Shown here piece by piece: positions 3,002 to 54,639 of a DNA stretch of 64,000 nt. Position numbers and translations under genes: made by a program. The first letter of the stretch is position 1, and every line of letters begins with the position of its first letter. The stretch is from positions 682,001 through 746,000 of the forward strand of contig NW_026516219.1 of NCBI RefSeq assembly GCF_025602895.1, given 5' to 3'. This DNA comes from Polychytrium aggregatum. Its lineage: Eukaryota; Chytridiomycota; Chytridiomycetes; Polychytriales. The notes beneath the pieces were generated by a model. That model was not told the origin of the DNA and ran no database searches. It was given only the letters and a program-made list of their open reading frames with translations.

Positions 3002-3787
3002 TCTACGTCCGATGGACCCTCGCCGATACGGCACTCTATTTATGTTAGGCGACGCTTCCGATCTGCCTGCGCATGTTGCCCACTGCCCCAAGTCTACCTC
3101 TTCGCGCCAGTCGTGGAGCCACATCCCAACAGGGTGAGCTGCCGGCGACCTGTCCTCTGCCGGAGTCTGCCCTTGGGTCGATGGAGATGATGTTACGTAT
3201 GAGTTGGATGTCGCCTGTCCTTGTATGTATTGCTGCATTTTTCGCCTTTCCAGCACCGGCCCTCCTTTTGTTTTCCCTCTCTTTCACTTCGCCTCTCAGG
3301 ATCTCCCATTTTTTCTTGTATGTGTGTGTGTGCAGTCGCTTTGCTCGCTTTGCTCTCAAACCCCAAGTCCGCCGAATGCTCCGGGGCTGCTGTGGGTCTC
3401 GGCTCTACCATAGCTTCTCGCCCCAGTAATATAGTCTTCCCAAGGCTTGAGCCGCACCGAATCGACCAGCGTCTGTCCCCGAGAGACGGGCAGCGGTGCG
3501 CACCGTCGCTGGCAGAGCGCCCAGTTCCCACAGGGCCGTGGGAACGTGGCAGGGCCGCCACACACACACCCGTGATCGCATCTGGCTCCAGCCGGCTCCA
3601 GCCGGCTGACTCAGCATGCCCATGCCGCCAGCCAATCCTCGCTTTCTTTGGCCGTCGTCCTTTGCCCGCCCCGTCCTTCTTTCGACCCGATCCCAGCCGG
3701 CCTTTCTGCTGCCTTCCTGTGTCGTCCTCCCACGCTGCCAATCTCTTGCCAATCAACGCACTTGTTGACCACCCTCTCGTTCCCGCC
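3002..3787. other. intergenic region, 3' UTR and promoter
   Basis: Contains the 3' end of the nicotinamidase transcript and a pyrimidine-rich leader (about 3640-3780) of the next gene. No coding exon can be supported; the long opposite-strand frames lack recognisable motifs. Confidence 0.5.
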
Positions 3788-8600: not shown

Positions 8601-11600
8601 CGTATCCGAATTTTTCGCACTTGCTGACTTGAATCTTTTGCTGGTAGCTAAATAAACAAGGCGCTGTGGTATGAGCTGAACGTGCTCTCACCTCGGATTC
8701 CACTGCGGCCATGTCAGGGTGCCGGCACTGAGGCGGGTTTGCTCCACAATCGGGGTCACTTCACCCAAGTTTCTCGACCAGCGATTGTGAATCGGTACGA
8801 CACTCATGGCCTGTCACGCCGCATAACTCTGCACATGTGCGACACTTGGCGTTGCTACCCCAGATATCACCAGTCGGCATCCAATCAAATGCGGCACCAA
8901 ATGCAGCACCAAAGGACATTGGGCACAAGGACTGCTTGCTCCCAACCCAGCCTCCATTCGGCCGTCAAGTACATTGATTTGTTTGGCTCACCACTTACCG
9001 ATGGAGCATGTAGCTCGTGCATGGGTCCATCGAGCCCGATTGGTGGAGCAGCAGCACCCCGCGCGGCGAGCCCGCAAAGTTGAGCAGATTGTCGAGCGAT
9101 ATGGTTAGCCAGTCCCGACGGCTGTGGCTTTTGTTGATGGAGTCAACTCGGGCACTATCATCGTGAACGAACATGTCCTGGTTCTCGGCGGCAAGGGTTC
9201 GATGGAGTCCATAGCGCTCGATCCAGAGTAGCCCCTCGCAAGTTCGATACAGCTGCCGGAGAAGGAAGATATAGGCCCCGAGGAGACGCAGGGGGATCGG
9301 CGAGAACGATCGGATCTCGCCTTTCAGCCCAAGTTGGACAAAATCCGCCACTGTCGGGATGATGCTTCGCACGGATGCGGATCCGTGGCATGTGTGCGAC
9401 GGCGAATGTTCCTGCGCGACCGTATACACATAGTCCGGCCTGGATAGTGTTCCTCTCAGCAGAAGATGGCGTCCGAGGTCTGTCGCGGCAATGCTTGAAA
9501 GGTTCTCGGATATGTGAAACAAAACCAGCTGCCGATCGTGGCTGTCCTTTGGGGAGAGATCTTGGTGCTTTCTCTTACTTTCACCGAGAATGAATTTGAT
9601 CGGCGCCACCAAATCCTCCAATGTATGTTCCTGGGGGGCAACGACGGAGACAAAACCAAGTCGGAGACATGCGTCAGCAAGGAGTGGTGGCGACAGCTAG
9701 AACCAAGCCCATCCGAGGTCAGCGCAGAGCAAGGCAAAGGTCAGTTGGTGCACAAACCTTGTGGAGATGGCTTTTGCATAGCGCACGGCAGGAAAACAGG
9801 CTGTTCAGTATGCCACACACGAATTTCGACAGGTTCAAAGGGGAAACTGTGTGGTATCGATCGGCTTGGTGCTGATTGTGCATGCTCTCGATCAGATCCG
9901 AGGCGACAGACAAATCAATGCTCGGGCAATAGCACATAAGGCGGACCAGTGTCCGAAGGAAGACTTGAAGGCCAATTTGTACGATTGGGGATGTGTCGCC
10001 TTCTGTACAGCGAGCGGTGCAACAGATTGACAAAGTCATCGATGCACATGTCCACGGCATGGGAGCAAGTCAGTAGAGCGACGAATCTGCGGTCAGCACC
10101 GAGCTGCCCATGCAGCGTCGCTTGGGATAGTCTCCAGTTTATCTCTCACCGAAGAGCGAGTCCAGCACCGAGTTCTTGGCAAGTGTCTTCTTGACGTATT
10201 TGAACGGAAAGCTCTGGCGTCCACTGAAGCATTGCGCCAATTTGGCGAGCATCACCGTCGAGTGAAGGAAGGCCAGGTAGTTCCAGTCGTCTCTGAACAG
10301 TGTTTTGCCGTTTCCGTCGCTCTCTTCGTTGGCCTCGACGTCCATCACTAAAACATCCTCCGCTTGAGTGGCCGCCTTTATCATTTCGATCGGCAGAAAT
10401 TGCTGGATGGTGAGGGTTCCAGCATAGTCAAAAAAGATCCGCCCCACCACGCTGCTCGCAAAGTTCTCCTGGATCAGCACCGAGCTCGTCGCAGTCTTGC
10501 CAAACTGAGACGCCATCCATTTCTCGAACCATGCAGCTTTGGGATCGATCAAAGCAAGGTAGTGGATGGCGTGTATCGATCCCGACGCCGGCAGGAGCTT
10601 TGTTGCTCCAGCGCCCGGCATTGCTGGGATGCTCGATGACGAAGCAACGCCATTGGACCCCACGGCGGCTGTGTCGCCGATGCCGGCTTTGAGCAGGCGG
10701 ACCGTGGCGCAGATGACCTCGGTAAGCAGACTTTCCGGAAATCGGTTCCAGCACGATGGTAGCTCGTGCTGGAACTGGTTGAGCAGACGAAACTGCGATA
10801 AACAAACAGTCCAAGAGAAGGGTGTTGAGTTAATATCCCGACGATGCCGGTGTCTCGTGGCTGTTGCTCTGGTGCAGTTGTTTGTAATCAACTGTCCAAG
10901 GCACACAGTTGGATATTTTCCATAACATGCCATTAGCGGATCTGATGTTGGTGCTGGTTTTGCATCAGGCGCAACGCTGTGGGTCGGCACATTCAGAACA
11001 TCCGCCGCACCTCCCGTGTGGCGGTGATGCCAGGACCGTACCTTTCGGAGCAGCAAATCATTTTTTGGATCGACGAGATCAAACCCATTGGATAACTTGG
11101 GTGTGTGGCCGCTTTCAATAAGTTGCGTCAGATGGTTGATAAGACTGACAAAGACCTCTCCTGTCATGGGCGGTGGTGCGGCTTTGAACGCTCTGGCGTA
11201 TATCCGAAGGCCGTGCATTGCAATCCTGGAGTTGGTGTAAGCCCGCCGCAAGGTACAGGGAAATCCGAAATTCGTTAGAACAATGTCCATCAAGAACATG
11301 TCGCTTGAATCAGGAACGAGCGACTCGTGCATTTTCCGCCAGCCGCCCAGGCGAAACCACCACTGCTTGTGAGTTTGTACGAACCTCGGATCTGCATCTC
11401 CAATTGACGCCTCCAGTGCTGGTCGGGAGTCGTTCCACAACTCTCCCGATAATAGATCGACCGATGAGAACGAGGCCAGTTTCTAGAGAACCATTGGGTA
11501 TCAACAAGCCGAGCGTCAATCAGGTCGCCGTTCCGAAGTCATATTCATGGACATCTCGTTGGTGGCGACCCCGCCAGCTGCCTCGCCTATCGGAATGACT

Positions 11601-38822: not shown

Positions 38823-39146
38823 TCCTGGAAACAGTTACAAAATTTGCAACCGTGATCCAACCGGCGCTCCTGGTGGGGTATATGCCGAGTGCAGGGATAT
38901 CTGTGCCGGCGTTTGCTGGAGCGGCCTGTTTGCTGGTAATGGGCAAGGCTGTTCCTGGAATAAACCACGGCACTCTCAAAGGGAACAGGTCACGCAGTGT
39001 TTGAGGCAATCGATATGTTTTCTTCTGTTTCTCTCTGAAGCTTGAATATATGCACATGTCAATCGAGTTTGTCCCGGGTACCTCACTCTTTGAGGGGGGG
39101 GGCGATCATCGTACCTGCGTTTCTCTTGGTTCACTGATTCCCACAT
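38823..39146. other. intergenic, 3' flank of coiled-coil gene
   Basis: No gene supported. Contains a run of nine G at 39094-39102. Confidence 0.5.
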
Positions 39147-39499
39147 TCGCACAACACGGCACCATCACTCGCCAAGGGAAAGTCTATGCAGCGATAAGGT
39201 TGCCAACCCAACTTCCCTGCTGGTCGCGCAGCCGAGGCCTGTGGGATTGTGGCTGGCCTTTGTGTGTATCGCATCGTTTCATGAAGTACCGTTGTCAACA
39301 TATGCGGTCGATACTCGTAAGCGATGATCAACTCGCACTCAGGATCGTGCTTACATTCGTGTTGCCACGACGATTCAGGACTGGGACACGGGTGCGATGC
39401 ATGGGCCTGATACCCGGGGGTGTAAAGCGTCTGGACCTCGAGAATGCTCTCGGGCACACAGGATCACAGGGTAGATGTGTGCGTGTTCAGAAGCCAGAG

Positions 39500-39532
<33 letters not shown>

Positions 39533-39580
39533 AAGAGGGGCCGTTGCGGCAGAGGCAGCAGCATCTACCCCAGCTTGGGA
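39147..39580 (+). repeat. 435-bp inverted repeat, copy B
   Basis: Reverse-complement twin of 29315-29749. Its right end stops only 64 bp before the presumed left end of the mariner-Fanzor element. Same GAGCCA-type hexamer tract near 39500-39530. No coding capacity I can support. Confidence 0.9.
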
Positions 39581-39644
39581 TGATTACGGTTATAACAAGC
39601 GAGCCAACCCTCCCACAGCACGTCCGGATTACAGGCAATCCAAT

Positions 39645-39657
39645 AAAAAACGGGACA
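39645..39657 (+). repeat. left terminal inverted repeat candidate
   Basis: AAAAAACGGGACA, a perfect 13-bp complement of 43346-43358, 59 bp before the transposase ATG. Confidence 0.6.
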
Positions 39658-39715
39658 CCCGGGTTTTTGACCATTCATCGAATATTTTGTTACCCAATGT
39701 TATCGCGCGCTGGCC

Positions 39716-40648
39716 ATGACCATTCGCCACACATCCGACTTTCGCACCGCCGCATTGCGATGCTACGCCCTCATCCATAGCCTGCGTAAGGTCGCCTCCA
39801 TCTTCAGTGTATCCAAGAGCACTATCCATCGATGGCACCGAGGATGCAAGCTGGATGACCCATCCCGGGTCCCAGCTCGCAGATCCACTTTCTTCGAGCA
39901 GGCATGTCCAGTCATTCGCACCCTGATTGAACAGGACCCGTTCCAGACTGGTCCTGTGTTGCGATGCAAGCTCGAGTCCATCCTCCAGAGGAAAGTTTCA
40001 CTCTCACTCTGCCACACTGCCATCCACCGAGCAGGTCTCTCACACAAGAGGGCAACACACCTCTACAAGTCCAAGCGACTGGATGAGCGAGTGGCACAGT
40101 TCAGGGACCAGGCCCGCTCCATCGACCCACGACGACTCGTTTTTGTCGACGAGACAGGGATCAGGAAATCCATTTTCCCTCTTTACGGATACTCACCGAA
40201 GGGTGCTCCGCTTCGCCAGCGCAATCACATGAAACACAAGTCTGTCTCAGCTGCATTTGCCATCAACCACTCTGGTGTGCTGCATCGCATGTACATCCCC
40301 ACATCATTCAAGACACACTCGATGGTCGAGTTCTTTGAGCGAGCGACCTTCCCAGACGACTCTGTGGTTGTGATGGACAATGTCAGCATGCACAAGACAA
40401 GGGCTGTCCTGGACTGCATCGAGCGCCGAGGATGGTCAGTGATCTTCACCCCACCTGCCTCGCCCGACTTCAATCCCATCGAGAACTTCTTTGGGATTGT
40501 GAAGCATCAGTACAGGAAGGCAGCAGCGCTGAATGCGTCCGAGGGGTTCAGAGTCGGGATGGTGACCCTGTTCGAGTCCGCCGTGCGGAGGGTGCTTCCA
40601 GATGTCTTCCCACCGCTGATTGAGCGAGCGATGCGCTTCTGGGGTTGA
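39716..40648 (+). CDS. IS630/Tc1/mariner-type DDE transposase
   Basis: Single-exon gene of 310 residues for a cut-and-paste transposase that recognises the element ends and inserts at TA. The N-terminus is helix-turn-helix-like (ALIHSLRKVASIFSVSKSTI), followed by a second DNA-binding helical segment. The catalytic triad is complete: D145 in LVFVDETGI, D221 in VVVMDNVSMHK and E256 in SPDFNPIENFFG, giving 34 residues between the second D and the E (DD34E). The frame is intact from ATG to TGA, so the enzyme could be active. It sits 59 bp inside the left terminal repeat and 252 bp upstream of the Fanzor ATG, on the same strand. Unlike the host genes it has no introns, as expected of a recent element. 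Confidence 0.93.
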   Translation: MTIRHTSDFRTAALRCYALIHSLRKVASIFSVSKSTIHRWHRGCKLDDPSRVPARRSTFFEQACPVIRTLIEQDPFQTGPVLRCKLESILQRKVSLSLCHTAIHRAGLSHKRATHLYKSKRLDERVAQFRDQARSIDPRRLVFVDETGIRKSIFPLYGYSPKGAPLRQRNHMKHKSVSAAFAINHSGVLHRMYIPTSFKTHSMVEFFERATFPDDSVVVMDNVSMHKTRAVLDCIERRGWSVIFTPPASPDFNPIENFFGIVKHQYRKAAALNASEGFRVGMVTLFESAVRRVLPDVFPPLIERAMRFWG

Positions 40649-40765
40649 GTTCCCTCCAATCAAGCCGCCATTTTCGCGTTCACATCCCTGGCTTGAACCT
40701 CTCGGCGATTTTTGAACAGGGTCGCTTCCCCAACCAGCCCGCAAAGACGGGCTCCTGCTCTCGGG

Positions 40766-40771
40766 TATAAA
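40766..40771 (+). promoter_or_regulatory. TATA box of the Fanzor gene (candidate)
   Basis: TATAAA in GGGTATAAATGCC, 130 bp upstream of the Fanzor ATG and followed by a pyrimidine-rich stretch (CTGCTGCTTTCTTCCCTC). This suggests the nuclease is transcribed from its own promoter rather than as read-through from the transposase. Confidence 0.5.
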
Positions 40772-40900
40772 TGCCACACCTTCGTCCTGCTGCTTTCTTC
40801 CCTCATCTCGCCTTGATCTGATCATCGCGCTATTGTACGATAAAAAAAAGTCTCTGCTCTGACCAGTACCACTGGCAGGCATCCAGCATCCTCTGCCCCC

Positions 40901-43273
40901 ATGCCTCCGAAGCGCAAGGGTGCCGGTGATTGCCAGCCTCAGCCTACCAGGCCCAAGAAAGCCAAGTCACAGTCGGAGCCTGTCTCTGGTTCGTATTCTG
41001 ACCCCACGCATGCTTGGTCGTCTGTTGCTCCGTCGCTCACCACCACTGCTTCTGCAGATCCAATGGATGTCGATCCCACCGAGCCTGGTCCATCTACTTC
41101 CTCGAGTACCGGCAAGCGATGTCGCCAGTGCGATGGCACCGATCACGAACGTTGCAACACCAACAGGTGTCCCAAATACCGGCCCCTCAAGAGTTCTGTC
41201 GTCCCACTCGTGGATGGAAGGTCATCCGCCCCTCAGTTCAGCTGCTTCAAGCAGACGATGGATGGCTGTTGTCTCAATCCCGCTCTCCGCGACAAGATCC
41301 AGGCCACCGTCGAGGCCATGACCCAGATCCAGTTCGAGGCATCCAGGCTGCTCAACCTGCACATCCTCCGGTGCATCGAGCAGGATATTCCTGTCCCCGT
41401 CATCTCCAGGGCCACCCCTGCATTCATCCGCCAATGCTTCAAGATCGTCCAGGACGGTGCCCTCTCCTCGACCGGGGACAACGAGAAATACAACGAGCAT
41501 CTGGTCGCTTCCTTTCGCGACTACCAGACCACTCGGCACGCAGACCTGCCTCCGGCCCCTCGTCTGCCTGATGGTGCTCACAGTCAGCTTCTCACACTGG
41601 CTGTCAATGCCTATGCCACCAACTGCACCACCCACCTCGACCTGGCTTATTGGAGACTCCTTCGCCGCTTCTGCGCTGCCGTCTTCCCAGCCAACAAGCA
41701 TAAGCACGAAGCCATCGAGGCCTGTCTCGAGCTCTTCGAGAAACTAGGGCAGACTCCGCCCAAGGCCGATCTCGAGTTCCTATATCCCGAGTTTGTCCAC
41801 ATCCTGGACGAGTTTCGGTACAGCAACGACCAGGACCGCTTCCGGGCCCTCCATCGCCTCTCACACCATGTGGGAATCCTCGCCCGGGACAAGATGGTCG
41901 ACGATGTCCACAAGTGGATCGACTGTGACATGCCCGCCCTCCGAGTCACCGAGCTGCAGCGCCAGGCCAAGCTGGACGAGCTCACTACCCAAGGCATTCC
42001 CTCCGACGACAAGAGGTTCACCACGGCCAAGTCTGAGCTCGGCACCACCAAGGCCAAGATCAACAAGCTGGCATCCAGGCTCAAGTGGGCACTCAAGCAA
42101 CTCGCTCTCGACACTCCTCCGGCCGTGTGCACGATGGTTCCTCTATGCACTGCCACGGCCAAGTATGTCAAGATTGACACGGTCACTCTTTGGAATCTCC
42201 TGGGTCCAAAGAAGCGCCTTGGCCTCACCAGGGACAAGCTCAAGGAAGAAGGTGAGGACGGTGTCAACAACCAGGATCGTCTCTGGCGCAGTTGCTTCAA
42301 GCTGCGTAGTTCCCTCTTCCAAGAGCGGGACGTGAACAAGAAGCTGTTCAACTACGAGATCAGCACCGATGGCATTGGATGCACCATCGGCCTCGTCAAG
42401 TTTGTGCGTCGAACCGATCACACCGAGACCATCGAGCCTCCTCCGACTGCCGAGCAGCGCATCCAGGCCCACATCGGTGACCCAAACCCCAACCGCACCA
42501 CTTGGATTGGCATCGATCCTGGAGTCGGCTCCATCTTCACGGCGGTCATCCAAGCACCGGGCCACCAAGACGAGGTGGTCTCATTCTCCAATGGCCACTA
42601 CTAGCACATGTGTGGCCACAAGTCCAATACTGAGTGGCACAACACCATGAAGTATCGACTCAGCATCGAGACCTGGATGTCGACCACCCCCTCGCCCAAG
42701 GTGTCGTCCTCGGAGGCTTTCAAGGTCCATCTCACCCATGTCCTGCGACCGGAGCTGCGAGTGCAGCTCGACTTCCACCTTGGCAAGAAGGCCCGTCACC
42801 ATCGCTTCACGGACCACAAGAGGCGCCAAGTGGCCGTCGACAGGATGTGCAAGGCCGTCCTGAAGCACGCCCCGATACGGACAGATGTGGTGATCGCCTT
42901 TGGCAATGCAGCATGGCGACAGGGCAAGGGCTATGCATCCAGCCCTCGGAGGCAGCGGTTTGCTCAGTACTTTGAGCAATTCGAGCACCACCGACGCCGT
43001 CCCAATCACCATCATGGAAGCGTCAAGGTAGTCTCGACGAATGAGTTCAACACCTCGCAGGTGTGCTCCAAGTGCCTGGAGCCAGTTCGGTTGGAAGGAC
43101 TCGATGCGCCCAGTGTTGCGAATTCCCACTTTGTCAGGAGCTGCAAGAATCCCAGCTGCCGGACAGTGTGGAATCGCGACGTCAATGCGGCGCGCAACAT
43201 GATCACAGTATGCAGGTCGATTGTGGAGATCGGAGAGCGACCGGCGGTCTTCACTCGGAGGCTGCCAAAGTGA
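40901..43273 (+). pseudogene. Fanzor (TnpB-related RNA-guided nuclease) with one in-frame TAG
   Basis: Fanzors are eukaryotic TnpB homologues that cut DNA guided by an RNA from the element's 3' end. The frame is 790 codons with a single TAG at 42602-42604 (codon 568). The N-terminal ~110 residues are disordered, with basic signals (MPPKRK and PTRPKKAKSQ) and a C74-C77-H82-C85-C90 cluster. A helical region spans about 120-500. RuvC-I is WIGIDPGVGSIFTAV (D539). Beyond the stop, VVIAFGNAAW (residue 664 on) occupies the RuvC-II position without an acidic residue. E692 and E695 in YFEQFEHH are candidates for the rearranged catalytic Glu described for Fanzors. The zinc ribbon is C722, C725, C748, C753, and RuvC-III is NRDVNAARNM (D760). 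Apart from the TAG nothing is broken, so the lesion is recent, or is read through. Confidence 0.88.
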
Positions 43274-43359
43274 TCTGTTTTATTTCTTGTGGCTTTGCTT
43301 GACGCAAGCACAGCACATACTACATGTTCATGGAAACGGCTATATTGTCCCGTTTTTTT
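43274..43359 (+). ncRNA. candidate Fanzor guide RNA (omega/fRNA) scaffold region
   Basis: The segment from the Fanzor stop to the right terminal repeat is partly conserved in relic 2. GCAAGC, CATACTACATG, CATGGAA and TGTC-CGT are shared over about 75 bp, although relic 2 has lost the flanking codons. In TnpB and Fanzor systems the guide scaffold derives from this 3' end, with the guide beyond the element edge. The RNA boundaries and structure are inferred, not seen. Confidence 0.4.
43346..43358 (-). repeat. right terminal inverted repeat candidate
   Basis: TGTCCCGTTTTTT, complementary to 39645-39657. An AATAAA at 43363-43368 just outside could serve as a poly(A) signal. Confidence 0.6.
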
Positions 43360-43555
43360 CTGAATAAAGTGTAAGCTGCAGTTTGATACGCATTAGGCAA
43401 ATTCTTGGGGATTGTTTGCAAGTGGCTCGGGGGCGACCATCGGCTCATGTGGTGATGTCGCTTTTGTCCCATATCCCAAGGCCTCTCGGGTGCTCAGAGC
43501 ACCTCCGAAGCGCCGAAATGAGACAGTGGACGCCGGGAATCGGTAGCGTGCAGTA

Positions 43556-44720
43556 CTAATTGTGGCCCCGTGACATGAGAACTCTGTCCGATAACCCGGC
43601 AAGATTATTCATAAGTTGGTGGAGCTGGCTGTAGTGGCCCATGATCTCTCGGGTAGACTCTCGAATTCGAGGATCCTGCGAAACAGAACGGTGGTCCAGT
43701 GAGCCGCTCGGAGGTGGATACAGCGCCCTGATTCCGAGAGCTGGAGCCATACACACGGTTCGGGCTGGTGCCGATGCGGCAAAATGGAAAGCTTGTCGAT
43801 AAAGCTGCGATGCCCCCACATACCATCTTGGCATACTCTGTCATTTCCATCAAGCCGACCCACTCCGCGACGCCTATCCGATCCTTGCTCGTTTCAGTCA
43901 GATGTAAGAGTGAATACAACAGTTCGACAGCCGGTCTATCGATTTCATGCGAGAGCCCAGCGATTCCACGGGATTAGCAAATGCATAAAAGATCAATCCC
44001 TGTCTCTGACTGCGATCAGAGGCTGCTGGTTCCCGGAAACATCAGTGTCTACCTTTGTGCCTCACGTTGGACGTAGAGGAAGCTCTTTGGGCTCGGCTGC
44101 TTGAGATTGAGCAGAATTGGCTGCAGATGAGAAAGTGTTGCGTCGATGTTGCTCTTGAGCTCGTGGAGATATTGAAGTTTTGATTCTAGGAGGAATTCGC
44201 TGCTGCGTCAGACAACGGAACCCCAACATGCCCCCGAGGCTCCAGCGCTATTGGACAGGGCCGATCTCATCGAGCCGACCAAGGTGAGCTGGCCCACTAG
44301 AGCAGATCCGAATACCTATCACCCTGTAGGCACCGGTCTCGGTCGCGAGGCCACGATTGATGCTATGAGCTCAGTACCCAGATCTTCGGAATAGGCCAGG
44401 TCATGAATAGCTTCGTGGCGCCTCACATGCGCCAGGCTTTGGTTGAGCTGTGAAACCCCCCTCCCGAAAATATAGATGCAGAGCGAGCCGTGCAACATGA
44501 GCGCAAGGGCCGCAGATGCAATGGACTTTTCATCGACAAGCCTCGTTGGTGTGCGGCAACAACAACGTACCTCTCCGATCGAGTGCTGGAGCTCAAACAG
44601 CTGCGTCAGAGTTTCTGCCCATCCGCTCGCGGACCCTTGGGCTGTGCCGTCTGGATGCAAAGTGTCGGCGGCGAGTCCCAGGCGCTCTGCTTCTTCCAGA
44701 ACATTGGCGTATGAATTCAT
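43556..44720 (-). CDS. multi-exon gene, unknown function
   Basis: Not recognised. Exon 1 is 44571-44720, starting MNSYANVLEEAERLGLAADT and ending in phase 0 at a GTACGT donor. Further coding-like segments read ALALMLHGSLCIYIFGRG (44.4-44.5 kb) and KLQYLHELKSNIDATLSHL (44.1-44.2 kb). VELLYSLLHLTETSKDRIG (43.8-43.9 kb) and a final piece ending NNLAGLSDRVLMSRGHN (stop at 43556) follow. All are helical, and the whole would be about 230-280 residues. A small coiled-coil complex subunit (for example augmin HAUS2-like) is possible, but no motif proves it. Head-to-head with XMAP215. The internal splice sites are not resolved. Confidence 0.4.

Positions 44721-44953: not shown

Positions 44954-54639
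<9,686 letters not shown>

Follow-up and report, generated by a model that had tools for sequence, protein, structure and literature searches.

Two genes lie side by side in a 64,000-nucleotide stretch of the Polychytrium aggregatum genome (the window; contig NW_026516219.1, positions 682,001 to 746,000, here G000:C79:682001-746000): one for a mariner-type transposase and one for a Fanzor, a eukaryotic RNA-guided nuclease. Is the nuclease part of the transposon, as an earlier note on this DNA had proposed, and what might it do there? A DNA search of the genome assembly (64.7 Mb, 418 contigs) with window positions 39001-44000, in which 33 of 1282 candidates were scored, provided the 30 best loci, including the window copy (L001); as best matches, they are tilted toward full-length copies. 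At 39630-43373 the window carries a composite element, 3744 bp from TA to TA, that belongs to a dispersed high-copy family, and each of the 30 fetched copies encodes both proteins on one strand inside shared ends. The composite element, its ends, its copy number, selection on both genes, a one-sided flank motif and the 3′ end kept in the derivatives read are direct observations. The family is probably an autonomous IS630/Tc1/mariner (DD34E) transposon carrying a Fanzor1-type nuclease, which would take its guide from the right flank, recognize WTTA (W, A or T) as its target-adjacent motif (TAM) and promote retention of the element at its sites.

The copies in the printed alignment start with TA-CAGGCAATCCAATAAAAAACGGGACA and finish with TGTCCCGTTTTTTTCTGAATAAAGTG-TA, with point differences in some (e.g. 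L005, L009, L013, L016 and L025). Because they share these boundaries, we delimit the element as 39630-43373, both TAs included, with the following ends.

39630..39631, no strand: left TA, left copy of the target site duplication (boundary common to the printed copies)
39632..39657, + strand: left terminal inverted repeat, 26 bp; 19 of 26 positions match the right repeat (counted by eye), the inner 13 exactly
43346..43371, + strand: right terminal inverted repeat, 26 bp (alignment of copies)
43372..43373, no strand: right TA, right copy of the target site duplication (alignment of copies)

The true ends lie 14-15 bp further out on each side than 39645 and 43359, where the earlier note had placed them, and the 13-bp inverted match it had seen is real, as the exact inner part of imperfect 26-bp repeats. 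TA flanks both sides of the printed copies, except on the right of L009 and on the left of L025; the element thus has the inverted repeats and TA duplication of the IS630/Tc1/mariner superfamily, the duplication being read from these flanks and not against an empty site. Twenty-six of the fetched copies align essentially end to end with the window copy, and L027-L030 lack an internal piece near the transposase 5′ end, in-frame. Substitutions relative to the majority sequence number 63-145 per copy, roughly 2-4%. Repeat-directed C-to-T mutation was ruled out as the cause of this divergence, with balanced changes (G>A 495, C>T 485, A>G 473, T>C 333).

Between these ends lie two genes, whose features are as follows.

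39716..40648, + strand: transposase, 310 aa, DDE_3 domain, IS630/Tc1/mariner type, DD34E; open in the window copy (Pfam DDE_3, 1.3e-24)
40766..40771, + strand: TATAAA, candidate Fanzor promoter, identical in 30 of 30 copies
40901..43273, + strand: Fanzor gene, 790 codons in open copies (Pfam Cas12f1-like_TNB, 6.2e-9 for open copy L004)
42515-42517, + strand: Fanzor D539 (motif match in open copies)
42602..42604, + strand: in-frame TAG at codon 568, interrupting the window-copy Fanzor (window copy read against the other copies)
43043-43045, + strand: predicted catalytic E715 of the Fanzor, placed by its position before the zinc finger
43178-43180, + strand: Fanzor D760 (motif match in open copies)

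The majority sequence of the transposase has catalytic residues D145, D221 and E256, with 34 residues from the second D to the E. Copy L004 scores 125.6 bits against the NCBIfam model transpos_IS630 (cut-off 100) and, together with the DDE_3 match and the DD34E spacing, this places the enzyme in the IS630/Tc1/mariner superfamily. Its frame is open in 20 of the 30 fetched copies, counting as open four with an in-frame internal deletion. Internal transposase deletions that keep the Fanzor region recur, either as an in-frame loss of most of the N-terminal part or as a missing gene end after the catalytic E (L028, L029, L030 and L043; L031, L034, L039 and L041).

The Fanzor frame is open in 22 of the 30 fetched copies, and a protein search found no stop in 47 of 57 full-length genome matches, the best-scoring 57 of 1281 candidates. 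Open copies contain the Fanzor motif of Bao and Jurka, D-X(125,275)-[TS][TS]XX-C4 zinc finger-X(5,50)-RD, as D539, 178 residues, T718 S719, C722 C725 C748 C753, five residues, and R759 D760. The window copy stops after 567 of 790 codons, upstream of the predicted E715, D760 and the C4 zinc finger, and so lacks every part of the motif beyond residue 567; the same-flank copy L002, on another contig, is also broken, at a different codon. In profile comparison with solved structures the best match was SpuFz1 (E = 0.0016), followed by GtFz1 (E = 0.061), both Fanzor1, and the similarity to the solved SpuFz1 structure (PDB 8gkh) is significant in the C-terminal nuclease part only. Fanzor1 is told from Fanzor2 by its clade in a phylogenetic tree and by a transposon other than IS607; here the best solved relatives, by profile, are Fanzor1 members, and the accompanying transposase is not of the IS607 type. 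The Fanzor region of L021 holds ten small clustered insertions that resemble long-read errors left uncorrected and call for caution about the assembly.

Several claims of the earlier note can now be judged. The roughly 3.7-kb, same-strand unit recurs across the genome at the 30 best loci, the mariner-type transposon does carry a Fanzor inside shared TA-flanked ends, the DD34E transposase is intact in the window, and the TATA box is present in every copy. The note would have been undone by copies with the two genes in separate elements or by ends excluding one of them; all 30 fetched copies are composite, and shorter Fanzor-less forms exist too. Its full-length Fanzor fails for the window copy, owing to the TAG, and its description of the system as recently mobile finds no support in the divergence among copies or in the search for empty sites, which found none at the 23 sites tested.

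Both genes are under purifying selection. Across the 30 copies, the ratio of nonsynonymous to synonymous polymorphism (pN/pS) against the majority sequence comes to 0.20 in the transposase and 0.31 in the Fanzor. For singletons alone it is about 0.29 and about 0.42, values that divide counted changes and show singletons likewise depleted of nonsynonymous changes. Because pN/pS is low, singletons included, most differences between copies arose by evolution and are not sequencing noise, and the function of both proteins has been maintained.

We now turn to the sequences flanking the insertions. In a genome-wide count of exact patterns, which includes copies at duplicated sites, T stood at position -1 of the left TA in 204 left ends and another base in 10 (214 in all); W stood at -2 in 157 of the 204 T-type ends and S (G or C) in 47. 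On the right, A at +1 of the TA was found in 40 ends and other bases in 170 (210 in all). The bias persists at unique flanks, counted with only exact A-type core left ends admitted among L031-L070 (A being the window family) and with six duplicate flanks merged (49 of 55 kept): T at -1 in 48 of 49 and W at -2 in 42 of 49, as against A at +1 in 6 of 37 unique right flanks, which show no clear preference (left versus right, p about 3e-16). As background, 260 of the 1619 cases of TA in the window (16%) have a T before them. A symmetric preference around TA would give T on the left as often as A on the right. In Spu-1 elements, as described in the sections of PMC10432273 covered here, a conserved CA precedes the left repeat, the measured TAM of SpuFz1 is CATA, and ghost elements keep the CA too. 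Because the one-sided motif has the same form as CA/CATA, we read WTTA as the predicted TAM of the A-family Fanzor, whose guides would by analogy come from the right flank. In the window copy, this prediction corresponds to two segments.

39628..39631, + strand: ATTA, predicted Fanzor TAM (WTTA), composed of two flanking bases and the left TA (flank counts)
43374..43393, + strand: right flank, predicted guide segment of the window-copy omegaRNA, its length assumed (analogy with SpuFz1)

Shorter derivatives point to a candidate for the scaffold of this RNA. Among the first 100 listed of 505 left ends with at most two mismatches (control, 2), related families included, 56 pair with a listed exact right end: 19 are full length, 17 about 3.6-3.7 kb, 10 about 3.4-3.5 kb, 4 about 1.1 kb and 6 under 400 bp. 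A 1114-bp form keeps element positions 1-665 and about 3296-3744, a 312-bp form keeps 1-99 and 3529-3744, and at least the last 216 bp are retained in 5 of 5 derivatives read of these two kinds (L033, L040, L042, L046 and L050).

43158..43373, + strand: last 216 bp, candidate omegaRNA scaffold region, kept in the 312-bp derivatives L033, L040 and L042

None of the 18 four-fold sites in Fanzor codons 721-760 varies across the 30 copies, and divergence is 0.013 in the 3′ untranslated part versus 0.029 between the genes. For the majority sequence, the folding z-score is about -3.1 for the last 144 nt and -1.4 for the whole 216 nt. Retention in derivatives is an indirect and suggestive sign that these 216 bp may encode the omegaRNA.

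From this arrangement we infer omegaRNA expression, guide use, cutting and a retention advantage, in the following mechanism. The transposase, to judge by its family, the element ends and the TA flanks, would move the element into TA sites. Transcription of the element's 3′ end would yield an omegaRNA with the sequence to the right of the insertion as its guide. The Fanzor would then use WTTA, straddling the left TA, as its TAM and cut the site wherever the element is absent, either because it has been excised or because the homologous chromosome lacks it. With a filled copy as the repair template, the element would be restored or spread. Gene-less short derivatives, which keep the 3′ end, could be maintained by Fanzor acting in trans.

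Several results weigh against this mechanism. The search for empty versions of 23 insertion sites found none (40 of 798 candidates scored) and so gave no sign of excision or of polymorphic insertion. Of the 204 T-type left ends, the first 100 in the list comprise 60 Fanzor-sized elements, 11 under 400 bp, 4 of 1.1 kb, 1 other and 24 unpaired, and the 10 non-T ends comprise 2 Fanzor-sized, 3 under 400 bp and 5 unpaired; non-T ends thus seem somewhat commoner among the small gene-less forms, which counts against a strict T rule. The conservation profile is patchy, with some transposase bins nearly as invariant, and the invariant stretch near the 3′ end is therefore suggestive only; across the 3′ stretches tried, folding z ranges from about +0.3 to -3.1, weak support for an RNA fold. 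Single-sequence AlphaFold2 runs yielded no usable model of the transposase or of the Fanzor C-terminal part (mean predicted local distance difference test scores, 42 and 31). Lastly, a related family with another Fanzor still has T to the left of its insertions above background, so the T preference could be the transposase's.

That last result bears on an alternative that we consider unlikely: the WTTA bias may reflect how the transposase complex chooses its targets, with the inequality of the element's left and right ends confining the bias to one side and the Fanzor uninvolved. The related family, B (e.g. L038:391-4048, G000:C2), has a transposase about 97% identical to that of A and an open 850-aa Fanzor with 43% identity to the A Fanzor; read by eye, the L038 Fanzor also has CCHC-like cysteine clusters near its N terminus. 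T precedes the left TA at 5 of 9 unique B sites, a count that drops L078 (the site of L073), L081 and L087 (one site, TA altered) and L084 (degenerate), as well as the A-type L085 and L086. This exceeds the 16% background (p 0.008), as the alternative predicts, and other related left ends are mostly T as well (e.g. L035, L048, L057, L063, L067, L068 and L070; not L049 or L066, while L036 and L047 have altered ends). However, 5 of 9 is below the 48 of 49 in A (Fisher p 0.001) despite the nearly identical transposase; the transposase is therefore not the only thing that sets the motif. Target preferences of Tc1/mariner elements are generally symmetric, which also counts against the alternative, and in Spu-1 the analogous bases belong to a measured TAM (PMC10432273, in the sections covered). 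WTTA remains our predicted TAM of the A-family Fanzor, and the transposase or a shared TAM may contribute to the motif.

Relatives of the B Fanzor (86-89% over the Fanzor part) match the B transposase region only in short pieces, most of 43-53 bp, which suggests that modules have been exchanged. For a beta-only Fanzor family, no left end was found within the stretch taken.

A further reading concerns copies that occupy the same site. The pairs L001/L002, L006/L008 and L007/L025, each with its members on two contigs, share flanks on both sides, and L012/L021 and L014/L020 share the left flank with different right flanks, as if rearranged through the element. Same-site flanks are about 99-99.9% identical, dropping to 95.6% in a single 608-bp stretch to the right of L006/L008, where a beta-type Fanzor fragment differs at about 3 positions over some 395 bp of printed sequence, the remainder of the stretch holding about 24 mismatches and gaps. 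The elements between these flanks are 95.8-97.0% identical, as for random copies (mean 96.2). Variable sites more than 25-50 bp apart show linkage no higher than noise, and in the alignment short blocks are shuffled from copy to copy; L019 and L024, at different sites, have 2.25 kb in common with 4 differences and then diverge. At five sites with both flanks on two contigs, the flank-to-flank gap agrees at two (L027 and L023) and differs at three (L015, L026 and L017: about 3.74 versus 3.47, 3.63 and 3.41 kb). One reading of this mosaic is massive ectopic gene conversion, helped by transposase or Fanzor breaks; another is that reads of many near-identical copies were mixed during assembly, for which the apparent assembly errors in L021 speak. 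The beta-type fragment right of L006 and L008 tips the balance toward neither. We consider it rather improbable that breaks by the two enzymes make the family a freely recombining pool, in which same-site copies are reshuffled by ectopic repair and are not alike by descent. If true, an RNA-guided nuclease would drive concerted, sex-like exchange across a whole transposon family, including Fanzor module swaps behind one transposase.

The Fanzor might instead be neutral cargo, or in decay, within a successful transposon, and it is indeed broken in 8 of the 30 fetched copies, the window copy included, while Fanzor-less derivatives have spread. The open frames in the other 22 copies and in most of the best protein matches argue against this view, already weakened by the selection signal, and we consider it improbable. 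Lastly, two separate elements adjoining by chance can be dismissed with near certainty, since in the 30 fetched copies the same two-gene unit stands within the same ends at 25 different left flanks, even though nested insertions do occur in this genome, such as the beta-type Fanzor fragment that starts within about 80 bp of the A-element right end in L006 and L008.

Elsewhere in the window are a BROMI-domain protein (1.5e-24; 10139-11332, - strand) and a TOG/CLASP-like HEAT protein (50129-52888, + strand), after which comes a frame encoding a long run of glutamines (52762-54060, + strand). BROMI is a ciliary protein, and the match would fit a flagellated host. Outside the fungus, a search of viral_contigs for relatives produced no tblastn-confirmed match for the Fanzor alignment (41 pattern stretches) or the transposase (10).

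How does the family compare with known systems? TnpB systems have their TAM at the left end and their guide in the right flank. IS200/IS605 and IS607 share the logic, in which a transposase is joined by an RNA-guided nuclease that has a TAM and an RNA from the right end, according to the sections covered of PMC10432273 and PMC10711439. They move by a single-stranded HUH enzyme or a serine recombinase, whereas the window family has a double-stranded DDE transposase and a TA target. Closest in its nuclease, among solved structures, is Spu-1/SpuFz1 of Spizellomyces punctatus (Saito 2023, PMC10432273; PDB 8gkh), with a Fanzor1 between inverted repeats and conserved bases upstream of the left repeat; the same source, in part, describes an omegaRNA at the right end, running 14-15 nt beyond the conserved right-end region, and ghost elements that lack the gene, and PMC3627910 gives putative TA duplications. 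The TAM is CATA there and, by our prediction, WTTA here, and SpuFz1, the best-studied Fanzor, sits in an element that PMC10432273, in the sections covered, describes as having no transposase.

The earlier note had put weight on the specific pairing of transposase and Fanzor; the pairing is present here but was already published in 2013. In the sections of Bao and Jurka (2013, PMC3627910) covered here, PUl-1 and PGv-1 each encode a Mariner-like transposase and a Fanzor1 within one element, as in the window family; PUl-4, with a Fanzor1 only, has Mariner inverted repeats and TA duplications; and PGv-1 and its relatives combine a similar transposase part with different 3′ cargo. Those sections infer no TAM for PUl-1 or PGv-1, in contrast to the WTTA predicted here, and they describe PGv-1 and three relatives as single-copy, whereas the window family numbers 30 or more near-full-length copies in one genome, both frames being open in many, along with deletion derivatives of several classes. 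Titles and opening parts of abstracts on Fanzor with mariner, with chytrid or, since 2023, with target site duplication (few subscription papers covered) contained no report of a high-copy transposase-plus-Fanzor family. Here a single genome combines open copies of the transposase and of the Fanzor with a predicted TAM, with gene-less derivatives retaining the 3′ end and with two different Fanzors behind near-identical transposases. With this set, one could test directly if cut-and-paste transposition is supported by a Fanzor, and if it is the nuclease or the transposase that the flank motif follows. Beside the Mariner-Fanzor1 elements known since 2013, the window family is unusually complete, and it comes with a strong, testable TAM prediction.

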